The notes under the pieces were generated by a model that did no database searches, was not told where the DNA came from, and saw only the letters and a program-made list of their open reading frames with translations. This document shows, one piece after another, positions 4,997 through 8,292 of a stretch of 13,087 nt of DNA. Numbering within the stretch: position 1 is the first letter of the stretch; each line of letters opens with the position of its first letter. Origin of the DNA: Hyphomicrobiales bacterium (GTDB lineage: Bacteria > Pseudomonadota > Alphaproteobacteria > Rhizobiales > Kaistiaceae); contig JAFKJZ010000164.1 in assembly GCA_017305815.1 (NCBI GenBank), forward strand, positions 1 to 13,087, in the 5' to 3' direction. A program made the translations under genes and the position numbers.

Positions 4997-5845
4997 TCAG
5001 GCCTTGCCGGCCCAGGGCACCAGGCGGCGCTCGATCCAGCGCAGCGTCGCCTCCAGCGCGAAGGCGACGGCGGCGATGACGAGGATGCCCATCAGCACGA
5101 CGTCCGTGACCAGGAACTGCGCCGCGGACTGGATCATGAAGCCGAGGCCGCGCGAGGCGGCGACCAGTTCGGCCGCAACCAGCGTCGACCAACCCGCGCC
5201 GAGCGCGATGCGGATGCCGGTCAGGATCGAGGGCAGGGCGCTCGGCAGCACGACATGGCGGAGCAACTGGCCGCGTGTCGCGCCGAGCGAGCGGGCGGCG
5301 TTCAGCCGGTCGGGATCGACGCCCTTCACGCCCGCCGCCGTCGAGATGACGATCGGTGCCAGCATGGCGACGCCGATGATCAGGATCTTCGACGGCTCGC
5401 CGATGCCGAACCAGATGATGACCAGCGGCAGGTAGGCGAGCGGCGGGATCGGGCGCAGGAATTCGATGATCGGATCGAAGATGCCGCGGCCGATGCGGCT
5501 CGCGCCGATGGCGAAGCCGATCGGCACGGCGATCGCCGTCGCGCCGACGAGGGCCGCAAAGACGCGGGCGAGGCTGGCGGAAAGGTGCTGCCAGAGTGTC
5601 GCGTCGACGAAGCCGTCGCGTGCGACGGTCAGGAACGCCTTGCCGACCGCGAGCGGCGACGGCAGGAACAGCGCCGATACCAGCTGGAAATGGGCGTCGA
5701 CCGTCCAGGCCAGCAGCAGCGTGACCAGCGTCGCGGCCGCCGTGAGGGCGACGACCGGGCGTTTTCGCGGCGTCGGCGGCCGGGAGGCTTCGGACTCGGC
5801 GCCTCGCGCCGGCGCGAGGACCGTTTCGGCGAGTTCGAGGCTCAT
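4997..5845 (-). CDS. tauC: Taurine ABC transporter permease TauC
   Basis: This 282-residue inner-membrane protein belongs to the BPD_transp_1 family. A Pro/Arg-rich cytoplasmic N-terminus leads to a first helix near residues 31-49. A block of helices follows, with the conserved 'PIPPLAYLPLVIIWFGIGEPSKI' segment (about 132-154). The EAA loop that contacts the ATPase is at about 182-205 (AARSLGAT...LPSALP). This pattern, including 'LPSPLAVGKAF' and 'AAELVAASRGLGFMI', fits the TauC/SsuC group. The start ATG overlaps the tauB stop as ATGA, preceded by the ribosome binding site GAGAGGGAAG inside tauB, so translation is coupled. It would form the membrane channel for taurine or a related sulfonate with TauA and TauB. 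A related aliphatic sulfonate specificity is the main alternative, but the adjacent TauA argues for taurine. Confidence 0.9.
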   Translation of the reverse strand: MSLELAETVLAPARGAESEASRPPTPRKRPVVALTAAATLVTLLLAWTVDAHFQLVSALFLPSPLAVGKAFLTVARDGFVDATLWQHLSASLARVFAALVGATAIAVPIGFAIGASRIGRGIFDPIIEFLRPIPPLAYLPLVIIWFGIGEPSKILIIGVAMLAPIVISTAAGVKGVDPDRLNAARSLGATRGQLLRHVVLPSALPSILTGIRIALGAGWSTLVAAELVAASRGLGFMIQSAAQFLVTDVVLMGILVIAAVAFALEATLRWIERRLVPWAGKA

Positions 5846-6612
5846 GCCGCTTCCCTCTCAAAGATGCTGTCGAGCAGGTCCTCGCGCGCCGCGACGAAGG
5901 CGGGACTCGCCTTGATCGAGCGGGCGCTTTCGCCGGCAAGACGAGGGCGGCCGAAATCGACGGCGGGGGGGCGGATGATGCGGCCGGGGCCGGGCGCCAT
6001 GACGATGATGCGGGTCGCGAGGTAGAGCGCTTCCTCGACGCCATGGGTGATCAGCAGCGTGCCGGCGCCGCTCGCGTCCCAGGCGGAGAGCAGCAAGTCC
6101 TGCATGCCTTCGCGGGTCATGGCGTCGAGCGCGCCGAGCGGCTCGTCCATCAGCAGGAAGGCGGGGTCGGCCGCGAGCGCCCGAGCGAGGCCGACGCGCT
6201 GGCGCTGGCCGCCGGAAAGCTGCCAGATCGGCCGGTCGCCGAGACCGGCGAGGCCGACGACGTCTAGCAGCCGGTCGGCCTGTTGCCGCCGTTCGGCCGG
6301 GCCGATGCCGGCGAGCCTGGCGGCGAAGGCGACGTTTTCCGCCGTCGAGAGCCAGGGGAACAGCGCGTCGTTCTGGAAGACGACGGCGCGTTCGGCGCCG
6401 GGGCCGGCGACCTCCCGGCCATCGACCAGCACGCGGCCGGCATCGGGCGTCAGGAAACCGGCGGCCAGGTTGAGCAGCGAGGTCTTGCCGCAGCCCGAGC
6501 GCCCGACGATGACGACGAACTCTCCGGACGCAATGTCGAGCGAGACGTTCGAAAGCACCGGCGCGCCGCCGTCATAGCGAAGCGAGACGTTTTCCAGCGC
6601 GAGATGGGGCAT
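5842..6612 (-). CDS. tauB: Taurine ABC transporter ATP-binding protein TauB
   Basis: This 256-residue ABC ATPase is complete. It has a Walker A GRSGCGKTS (37-45), Q-loop Gln80 (VVFQND), signature LSGGQRQR (132-139), Walker B FLLMDEP (152-158), D-loop following it, and switch His190 (LITHGVEEAL). The motif 'GRSGCGKTSLLNLAAGF' and the FPWLS after the Q-loop are typical of the nitrate/sulfonate/taurine importer class. The ATG at 6612 has an AGGA ribosome binding site 8-9 bases upstream. It energises taurine import through TauC. Its stop overlaps the tauC start. It is separated from tauA by 231 bases that contain two hairpins, so it is probably expressed at a lower level than the binding protein. 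Confidence 0.92.
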   Translation of the reverse strand: MPHLALENVSLRYDGGAPVLSNVSLDIASGEFVVIVGRSGCGKTSLLNLAAGFLTPDAGRVLVDGREVAGPGAERAVVFQNDALFPWLSTAENVAFAARLAGIGPAERRQQADRLLDVVGLAGLGDRPIWQLSGGQRQRVGLARALAADPAFLLMDEPLGALDAMTREGMQDLLLSAWDASGAGTLLITHGVEEALYLATRIIVMAPGPGRIIRPPAVDFGRPRLAGESARSIKASPAFVAAREDLLDSIFEREAA

Positions 6613-6843: not shown

Positions 6844-7860
6844 TCAGTTGGAAGCTTGCGCCTCGGTCACGAACTTGGTGGTGACGTAGCCGCTATAGTC
6901 CGGGAGCACGGCCGGGATCTTGCCCTGCTCCTTGAGGAAGGCCGAGGCGTCGGCGATCGCCTTCACCGTGCCGCCGCCGAGCAGGTCTGCCGAAGCCTGC
7001 TCTTCCAGCAGCGGGAAGTGGTAACCCTTGAGCAGGGCCGGGACTTCCTCGACCTTGGCGCCGGTCAGGCGGGCAATCTTGGCGGCCTGTTCGGACTTGG
7101 CGTCCCAGGCTTCCGGCTTGGCGCGGAAGTCGGCATAAGACTGGCCGGTCACCTTGACGAAGGCCTTGACCGCTTCCGGATGGGCGTCGGCGAATTCCTT
7201 GCGGACGATCCAGGCGTCGAAGGTCGGCGCGCCGAAAGTCGCGACCTGGGCCGAGTCGGTCAGGACCTTGCCGTTTTCCTTGATCTTGCCGAGCGCCGGA
7301 TCCCAGACATAGGCCGCGTCGATGTCGCCGCGCTCCCAGGCGGCGGCGATCTCCGGCGGCCGCAGGTTCAGGATCTCGACCGACTTCGGATCGATGTTCC
7401 AGTGCTTCAGCGCGGCGAGCAGGCTGTAATGGGTCGTCGAGACGAAGGGCACGGCGATCTTCTTGCCGACGAGGTCCTTCGGTTCGCTGATCTTGGCGCC
7501 GTCGCGCACGACCAGCGCCTCGGATTCGCCGATCAGGCCGACGACGAAGATCGTCTCGATCGGCAGTTCGCGGCTGGCGGCGGCGGCGAGCGGGCTGGAG
7601 CCGACATAGCCGATGTCGACGGCGCCGGAAGCGATGGCGGCGATCACGTCGGCGCCGGAATCGAATTTCTTCCAGTCGATCCTGGCGTTGGCGGCCTTTT
7701 CATACAGGCCGTCGGCCTGCGGGACCTTCGAGGGCTCGACGACGGTCTGGTAGCCGATGGTGAGCTTGGTCTCGTCGGCGCGGGCGGTGGCGCCGGCGGC
7801 GAAGGTCAGGCCGATCGCGGCGGCGGTGGCGACGAAGGTGCGGCGGGTGATGCGTGACAT
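6844..7860 (-). CDS. tauA: Taurine-binding periplasmic protein TauA
   Basis: This 338-residue protein starts at an ATG with an AGGA ribosome binding site. It has a cleavable signal (about residues 1-28, ATARA|DE) carrying a twin-arginine pair in TRRTFVA, so Tat export is possible. The mature part follows E. coli TauA closely in order and wording as I recall it: 'VEPSKVPQADG', 'IDWKKFDSGADV', 'VGSSPLAAAAS', 'GESEALVVRDG', 'KKIAVPFVSTTHYSLLAALKHW', 'AAWERGDIDAAYVWDPAL', 'GAPTFDAWIVRKEF', 'FLKEQGKIPAV'. These point to taurine rather than general alkanesulfonates. It would capture taurine in the periplasm and hand it to TauBC. The gene follows a 148-base leader that contains a small upstream ORF. 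No tauD, tpa or xsc gene is next to it. Confidence 0.95.
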   Translation of the reverse strand: MSRITRRTFVATAAAIGLTFAAGATARADETKLTIGYQTVVEPSKVPQADGLYEKAANARIDWKKFDSGADVIAAIASGAVDIGYVGSSPLAAAASRELPIETIFVVGLIGESEALVVRDGAKISEPKDLVGKKIAVPFVSTTHYSLLAALKHWNIDPKSVEILNLRPPEIAAAWERGDIDAAYVWDPALGKIKENGKVLTDSAQVATFGAPTFDAWIVRKEFADAHPEAVKAFVKVTGQSYADFRAKPEAWDAKSEQAAKIARLTGAKVEEVPALLKGYHFPLLEEQASADLLGGGTVKAIADASAFLKEQGKIPAVLPDYSGYVTTKFVTEAQASN

Positions 7861-7954
7861 GGTTCTGTCCTGAAATGTTCGCGCAGATAGCCGTTCGCGG
7901 AACGGGAGCGCGGGAGAAGCTGGGATTCTGGAAGGATGCCGCTGCGGGCGCGGC

Positions 7955-7970
7955 GTCGCCCTCAGGCGAC
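7955..7970 (-). promoter_or_regulatory. Tetraloop hairpin in tauA leader
   Basis: GTCGCC (7955-7960) and GGCGAC (7965-7970) pair perfectly around a four-base loop. The stem starts 18 bases after the uORF stop codon. A neighbouring stem, CGACC with GGTCG, lies between it and the uORF and would be covered by a ribosome halted near the end of the uORF. This geometry fits a leader-peptide switch, but pairing energy was not calculated. Confidence 0.4.
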
Positions 7971-7987
7971 CTCGACCATGGGGTCGG

Positions 7988-8008
7988 TCAACAGAGCCGG
8001 GTTGTCAT
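7988..8008 (-). CDS. Upstream ORF, putative leader peptide MTTRLC
   Basis: A six-codon ORF, ATG ACA ACC CGG CTC TGT TGA, gives MTTRLC. It is preceded by a strong ribosome binding site, AAGGGAGA, 6 bases before the ATG, better than that of tauA itself. Its last sense codon is Cys. It sits 127 bases upstream of the tauA start in the same transcript, with hairpins between the two. Cysteine codons in short leader ORFs before sulfur genes are known from actinobacteria, where ribosome behaviour at those codons senses cysteine supply. The same logic is inferred here; nothing in the sequence proves translation. It could be a chance ORF, but the ribosome binding site and the terminal Cys before a sulfonate operon make that less likely. 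Confidence 0.55.
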   Translation of the reverse strand: MTTRLC

Positions 8009-8121
8009 GACGCGTCTCCCTTGGGGCTTAGCCGTTGTTGGCGCGGGGCAAGCCGATCCTGAAATCGCCGCGGCGGTCGATCATCCGACCTTGCCTTCAG
8101 ACTAGGCAATGACGGCTTAGG

Positions 8122-8230: not shown

Positions 8231-8265
8231 CAAAGAAAAAGGGAGGCCGCTGGTGCGGCCTCCCT
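8231..8265 (-). terminator. Rho-independent terminator of gcd
   Basis: On the minus strand a perfect 10-base stem (GGGAGGCCGC, ACCA loop, GCGGCCTCCC; 8241-8250 with 8255-8264) is followed directly by TTTTTCTTTG. An extra A-T pair closes the base. It begins 28 bases after the gcd stop. It separates gcd from the tau operon. Confidence 0.93.
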
Positions 8266-8292
8266 CGGGTCTGGTTCGCCTCGTGTGGCGGC

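Follow-up and report, generated by a model that had tools for sequence, protein, structure and literature searches.

The 13,087-nt stretch of DNA analyzed here (hereafter the window; contig G000:C285) carries a set of taurine transport genes, all on the minus strand. tauA (6844..7860) encodes the substrate-binding protein of a taurine ABC transporter and matched TIGR01729 with 499 bits, above the curated cut-off. The genes for a tauB-like ATP-binding subunit (5842..6612) and a tauC-like permease (4997..5845) had NF008421 (330 bits) and NF007545 (326 bits) as their best matches, under the cut-offs of 357 and 342, respectively. Upstream of tau lies a PQQ-dependent dehydrogenase gene on the same strand (10770-8293), and a terminator-like hairpin was found 3' of this gene (8239..8266, minus strand; one found versus 0.6 expected in shuffles). 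This hairpin points to a separate tau promoter between 8239-8266 and 8097, and the transcript therefore probably starts between the hairpin and the conserved leader; a promoter scan gave no match to a sigma-70 promoter. A conserved box, CTTTATCG...TAG (8129-8116 in the window), stands upstream of the RNA element in Kaistia tau leaders and is a possible activator or promoter site. Just 5' of the tauA ribosome binding site, minimum free energy (MFE) folding placed a hairpin, CGCGC..GCGCG (7880..7912, minus strand), and a GC-rich hairpin was also present in the MFE folds of L003, L005, L006, L007, and L009.

The original prediction placed a six-codon upstream ORF (uORF) ending in a Cys codon within the tauA leader. 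Its coordinates and frame are correct: 8008-7988 on the minus strand (ATGACAACCCGGCTCTGTTGA) reads MTTRLC followed by a stop, with the Cys codon TGT (7993-7991) immediately 5' of TGA. A Shine-Dalgarno (SD)-like AAGGGAG (8016..8022, minus strand) precedes the ATG with a spacing of 7 nt and is, as predicted, a stronger ribosome binding site than that of tauA (7860..6844), which reads CAGGACAGAACC-ATG. We searched for TauA orthologs in 101 genomes, including 14 of the window's genus, inferred to be Kaistia, with the window's own genome counted. A full-length tauA ortholog (E <= 4.1e-170) was present in 10 of the 14 genus genomes, and no tauA ortholog was found in the other 4. In the alignment of these ten tauA leaders, the uORF (ATG AC. 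... TGT TGA) was present in every leader, about 133-149 nt 5' of the tauA start and always behind an SD-like purine run. The peptides were MTTRLC in five leaders and MTPRLC, MTNRLC, MTERLC, MTRLLC, and MTRLRC in the others; thus, the inner codons vary, while the start, Cys codon, and stop are invariant. The mean identity of the other nine leaders to the window was 0.88 in the uORF, 0.91 in the RNA block upstream of it, 0.55 between the uORF stop and tauA, and 0.87 in the first 300 nt of tauA. Conservation in 10 of 10 leaders rules out a chance uORF, and a Cys-ended uORF with a ribosome binding site, in the leader of a sulfur operon, is therefore a conserved feature of these loci. The uORF could still be an untranslated by-product of conserved primary sequence or of a DNA site, and its end is indeed conserved at the nucleotide level in Kaistia. 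Nevertheless, the start, SD, frame, Cys codon, and stop are kept despite the varying inner codons, and unrelated uORF sequences at other loci have the same property, which makes this explanation highly improbable. The two small adjacent stems that had been noted just 3' of the uORF (7986-7973 and 7970-7955; 7955..7986, minus strand) are present in the sequence, but they are not conserved among the ten leaders and so are unsupported as a partner structure. By eye, stem 7986-7973 could be aligned only in L001-L004, and the folding energy of the two-stem stretch was ordinary (z -0.97). Outside the genus, a tauA leader of G076 (L011), whose TauA is 66% identical to that of the window, has a Cys-ended uORF encoding MNLHCC, with GGGGAAG upstream, 151 nt 5' of tauA.

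Conservation in the leader peaks not in the uORF itself but in the block 5' of it, a feature absent from the original prediction. A covariance model (R1) was built from 18 leaders and matched the full block, a SAM-II-like RNA element, at 8021..8097 (minus strand) with 83.4 bits; the window leader is itself one of the 18 training sequences. From 5' to 3', the block is ordered as GGUCG-GAUGAU-CGACC, then CGCGG-CGAUUUCA...GGCUUGC-CCCGCG...GGCUAAGCC. The first part forms a 5' hairpin (stem A; 8075..8090, minus strand), and the P1 stem (CGCGG / CCGCG; 8040..8072, minus strand) encloses GAUUUCA (8066-8060) and GGCUUGC (8054-8048). Stretch GGCUAAGCC (8025..8033, minus strand), 2 nt before the SD of the uORF, is the presumed 3' strand of a pseudoknot, P2. 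Covariation supported both stems: both partners had changed in 5 of the 5 pairs of stem A (86.4% of cells paired) and in 3 of the 5 pairs of P1 (99.6% paired). The covariation score was 0.517 for 101 copies from 95 loci, whereas shuffles scored 0.115 and slid controls no higher than 0.102; the alignment used (A5) was fitted to the model structure and is biased in favor of covariation. P2 was outside this count, and its inner GC/GC letters are too nearly invariant for covariation to bear on it. MFE folding of the leader gave no support for structure (z 0.41 and 1.09) and is uninformative here because such a fold cannot show a pseudoknot. A hairpin of at least 7 pairs follows the pseudoknot strand in 116 of 155 leaders, compared with 26% of shuffles. 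This hairpin is absent from Kaistia tau leaders L001-L008, in which the SD comes directly next; for six of these eight, the hairpin count gave at most 6 pairs. In L008, the P1 loop carries a 13-nt insertion able to form a GGATC..GATCC hairpin.

The block is related by sequence to the SAM-II riboswitch (RF00521, SAM_alpha; a relative of SAM-V). The two have in common a P1 stem, the core elements GAUUU, CUUGC, and GCUAA in matching order, a possible pseudoknot topology, an association with sulfur-related genes, and occurrence in Alphaproteobacteria. RF00521 matched the window leader at the right place and on the right strand (8081-8010) with 14.1 bits, against a cut-off of 36, and this copy ranked third among six in a search of its own genome (E <= 10), with chance matches around it; L010 scored 21.6 bits. 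A sub-threshold set of 22-32 bits was found at non-tau loci of Kaistia and others, where the best variant copy scored 32.3 bits (genome E 3.2e-5); another variant copy scored 31.6 bits, and no variant copy tested reached the cut-off. In contrast, canonical copies above the cut-off (48-88 bits) were present in 80 of the 101 relatives' genomes. The window's own genome has one of 57 bits before a metZ-like gene (G000:C435:4428-4508; gene assigned by eye), and L068 and L069 are canonical-looking copies before metZ-like genes, again by eye, with L070 ambiguous in type. The variant also lacks, by eye, the canonical long outer P2 helix; the outer helix of the canonical copy in the same genome, CCGACC/GGTCGG, has no counterpart in it. 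Conversely, the variant adds stem A on its 5' side and, in most cases, a hairpin on its 3' side, is usually followed by a Cys uORF, and mostly precedes genes of sulfur acquisition rather than of methionine biosynthesis. Ten of the sub-threshold loci (L051-L060) have a core in common with the tau block, and the uORFs behind them carry Cys codons close to their ends, such as MPKTMATLRHPFRPFEMCRCRRNSH before the stop in L056 and ...MWCRARCC in L057, the latter ahead of metNIQ-like genes (by eye). Six other sub-threshold matches (L061-L066) were, by eye, unlike the tau-type element. SAM_alpha occurs in Rhizobiales and Rhodobacterales with metY as a core target, and the available part of that report mentions no tau-type variant (Leyn et al. 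2014, PMC4239095). Among other Rfam families, dauA, Atu_C4, CDKN2B-AS, and CsrC at the leader were all far under their cut-offs. The alphaproteobacterial sulfur-gene leader motif sul1 (RF03058) did not match the leader at E <= 10; it was found at other places of the same genomes, for example, at G009:C1:1176504 and, in the window's own genome, at G000:C79:2138-2193 (78 bits).

In the order (297 genomes), R1 matched 68 genomes at E <= 0.01 and 56 at E <= 3e-5. Some of the genomes counted had contributed sequences for training, and no fewer than three of the weaker matches are canonical SAM-II loci (G069:C2, G083:C38, and G087:C27). R1 matched 65 of 289 genomes within the class at E <= 0.001 and 13 of 299 in a phylum sample, all 13 of them Alphaproteobacteria; both counts include weak matches unscreened for canonical SAM-II. 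An exact degenerate pattern matched at least 120 stretches in named genomes, of which 80 were analyzed and 40 (L224-L263) were left out. The pattern fixes the 3' strand of P1 and the core letters and leaves GATTT and the 5' strand of P1 free, so sequences found with it prove neither of the fixed parts. The 80 matches listed are alphaproteobacterial, except for one assigned only to Pseudomonadota, and include Methylobacterium, Microvirga, Bosea, Chelatococcus, Azospirillum, Acetobacteraceae, Sphingomonadales, Hyphomicrobium, and Rhodoplanes. Seven loci (L186, L215, L282, L284, L286, L287, and L288) carry tandem copies about 120-160 nt apart, the second of which is often weak, an arrangement known from riboswitches, SAM-II among them (PMC9481103). 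In most of these loci, P1 of the first copy differs (CGCGCC/GGCGCG, for example), and this copy may resemble canonical SAM-II more closely.

Using an automatic rule (ORFs of 4-45 codons whose start codon follows an SD-like run), we detected 130 uORFs in 155 leaders, a set from which L196 had already been removed because it is the L058 locus. In 98 of these uORFs, at least one of the last 12 codons encodes Cys; 100 shuffles of the same leaders gave a mean of 15.1 and a maximum of 22. Removal of one duplicate (L195, identical to L095) left 154 distinct leaders, some of them 95% or more alike. A Cys uORF was present in 97 of the 154 (shuffles: mean 14.8, sd 3.5, maximum 23). The rule errs both ways, with wrong starts in, for example, L105, L106, L113, L130, L135, and L174. 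In frame, 9.3% of codons were Cys codons, compared with 4.7% and 2.5% for the two other frames, and the Cys codons were clustered within about 8 codons of the stop. Cys uORFs were found in 10 of 10 Kaistia tau leaders, 49 of 66 leaders of the order set, 34 of 49 named leaders without Sphingomonadales, and 4 of 29 Sphingomonadales leaders, compared with 1 of 20 canonical SAM-II leaders of the order. The proposed link between a Cys-codon uORF and sulfur genes thus recurs across alphaproteobacterial loci. The association of the RNA element with the Cys uORF is strong but not universal; Sphingomonadales mostly lack the Cys codons, so the two are separable. The Cys uORFs may in turn be more widespread than the element, because the L011 leader gave no R1 match even at E <= 1.

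This separability bears on two simpler explanations, each with a single sensor. In one, the leader would be a plain translational riboswitch, with the pseudoknot as the sensor and the uORF only as an expression platform, whose translation matters and for which cysteine is irrelevant. Most Sphingomonadales uORFs do lack Cys, the presumed pseudoknot strand adjoins the uORF SD in Kaistia tau leaders (2 nt in the window), and riboswitches acting via a uORF are known in Mycobacterium tuberculosis (PMC12810186, PMC11260477). A plain riboswitch is nevertheless improbable given the in-frame enrichment of Cys near the stop, which greatly exceeds that in shuffles and in other frames, and the TGT before TGA that is invariant in 10 of 10 Kaistia leaders, whereas codon 3 is variable. 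In the other, Cys-codon attenuation would act alone, with the uORF as the sole sensor and the upstream RNA as a 5' stabilizer or ribosome standby structure without a ligand. The clustering of Cys codons near the stop, their presence in 93 of 125 distinct leaders outside Sphingomonadales, and the L011 uORF agree with this explanation, as do the candidate leader peptides with Cys codons in actinobacterial cys operons, for which the accessible text describes no aptamer (PMC1262725). However, the RNA core is conserved beyond the need of a generic hairpin, resembles the ligand core of SAM-II, occurs in tandem, and persists in Sphingomonadales, mostly without Cys codons; we therefore regard attenuation alone as unlikely.

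The downstream genes sampled mostly serve sulfur acquisition. Among 18 hand-picked downstream neighbors, NCBIfam matches above the curated cut-offs were obtained for TauA (L120 and L124), the SsuA family (L135), a sulfate-binding protein (L136), a family 2A encapsulin cargo cysteine desulfurase (L129, NF041166), an NtaA/DmoA monooxygenase (L131), a MetY-type enzyme (L215), MetQ/NlpA (L151), and the FMN reductase MsuE (L208). The best matches were below the cut-off for taurine dioxygenase (L148 and L173), MetN (L172), MetQ (L089), SsuA (L177), and an N-terminal piece of a MetY-type enzyme (L081). Three of these neighbors gave no clear sulfur gene by NCBIfam, namely, a glutamine amidotransferase (L223), an unmatched protein (L204), and a weak match of acyl-CoA dehydrogenase type (L188). 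The first larger gene was likewise unassigned or no recognized sulfur gene in Kaistia loci L051, L052, and L054-L060 and in many Sphingomonadales. By eye, the next large gene is aminotransferase-like in L051 and L052, encodes an unassigned protein of about 725 residues in Kaistia L055-L060, and is TonB-receptor-like in several Sphingomonadales. The position of the L129 element before an encapsulin cargo gene makes a link to encapsulin sulfur storage possible. An unannotated small protein of one family is encoded downstream of the element in 57 of 66 loci (10 sub-threshold RF00521 loci and 56 R1 loci at E <= 3e-5) and in 37 of the 80 named loci listed. It has about 60-100 amino acids with the pattern ..IIEIDDxAAGILVRxGxxFAFHA....LEG..F....AAERAAR, as in L118, where it lies 333-543 nt from the element. 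Pfam gave nothing above the cut-off for this protein, and a protein search returned only the name hypothetical protein, wherever one was given; it is possibly a sulfur-starvation protein.

The window copy also differs from SAM-II within the core. Parsing succeeded for 176 of 180 distinct copies; the parsed copies had either GCUAAA (161 copies) or GCUAAG (15 copies; hereafter A type and G type). The base after the GAUUU run was C in 0 of 161 A-type versus 10 of 15 G-type copies, and the base two before CUUGC was A in 159 of 161 versus 3 of 15. The window copy is of G type, with GAUUUC and GGCUUGC in its core. Among the ten Kaistia tau leaders, eight (L001-L008) are of G type and two (L009 and L010) of A type; L008 keeps GAUUUG, has an insertion, and was left out of the 176. 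Further G-type copies include L090, L094, L121, and L136 (another family of the order) and L184 (Hyphomicrobium), and the non-tau Kaistia copies read were of A type. SAM-II has a conserved GCUAAA, and the window has G where the A contacting the amino-acid end of SAM would map. In SAM-V, A50 holds the amino-acid end of SAM (PMC6061858), and by analogy this would be the A that is replaced in the window copy. Concerted core changes have served to recognize riboswitch variants with new ligands, for example, from SAM-I to spermidine (PMC10853860); the changes seen here, in a small sample of related sequences, provide a lead only. In a more far-reaching reading, which is tentative and rather doubtful, the leader would belong to an undescribed SAM-II-related alphaproteobacterial RNA class that gates a Cys-sensing uORF, and the ligand of its G-type subclass would have shifted from SAM. 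Induction would then require a low level of the small-molecule signal together with uncharged tRNA-Cys.

As for the mode of control, intrinsic terminators were rare: 13 were found in 155 leaders, whereas shuffles gave 5.4 and the reverse strand gave 7. This rarity speaks against classical intrinsic-terminator attenuation as a general mechanism and leaves translational or Rho-dependent control. A bias of C over G, considered as a sign of a Rho site, was found after the uORF in 78 of 97 cases, yet also within the uORFs themselves in 75 of 97, and was discarded. The position of the pseudoknot strand next to the SD in Kaistia tau leaders suggests control of the uORF ribosome binding site. In translational SAM-II and SAM-V switches, SAM binding hides the SD, although most SAM-II switches are reportedly transcriptional (PMC6061858, PMC9373788). 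Taking these observations together, we judge it fairly likely that the leader exerts cis-acting, sulfur-status control of tauABC through two consecutive sensors, namely, a SAM-II-like pseudoknot followed by a Cys-codon uORF. The first would be an H-type SAM-II-related pseudoknot whose last strand ends 2 nt before the uORF ribosome binding site, and the second would be the six-codon uORF with its Cys codon immediately before the stop. When sulfur is ample, a ligand (SAM or a relative) would hold the pseudoknot and mask the uORF ribosome binding site, and ribosomes that do initiate would meet charged tRNA-Cys and depart at once. Their departure would expose the downstream mRNA to structure or Rho and keep tauABC low. 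When sulfur is short, the pseudoknot would open, ribosomes would pause at UGU and shield the leader, and tauABC would be expressed.

Cys codons near the stop of a conserved short uORF upstream of sulfur genes are the marks of a Cys-codon leader peptide, and all were found here. The actinobacterial Cys-codon leader uORFs are reportedly called leaderless in the title of a 2020 paper by Canestrari et al. (cited in PMC13236596). The leader peptides of actinobacterial cys operons resemble the tau uORF in being short, in having Cys near the stop before sulfur genes, and, in the accessible part of the description, in having no obvious terminators (PMC1262725). They differ in phylum and target genes, and the tau uORF is SD-led and preceded by a conserved pseudoknot-like RNA. 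The uORFC-8-2 motif of Rhodobacterales cysS is likewise an alphaproteobacterial uORF with Cys codons, but its tandem Cys are usually codons 14-15, it has an intrinsic terminator, it is confined to cysS, and the accessible text describes no aptamer for it (PMC8632094). In M. tuberculosis, the Mbox-rv1805A leader, with Rho (PMC12810186), and the B12-ppe2/metE leader (PMC11260477) also combine a riboswitch with a small uORF before the regulated gene; their ligands are Mg2+ or B12, and the accessible parts of these papers describe no amino-acid-sensing codon. We found no description of the two-sensor combination in the openly licensed literature, a body of work that mostly excludes subscription papers, and we consider its novelty provisional. 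The upstream SAM-II-like block probably turns a single-input Cys attenuator into a two-input leader. If the two-sensor interpretation is right, one short leader would read both a SAM-like metabolite and the charging of tRNA-Cys. The element would then mark a shared sulfur-starvation regulon in Hyphomicrobiales, Methylobacterium, Azospirillum, and others and identify its members, the unannotated small protein among them, and the natural series of SAM-II relatives with altered cores would bear on how ligand specificity changes.
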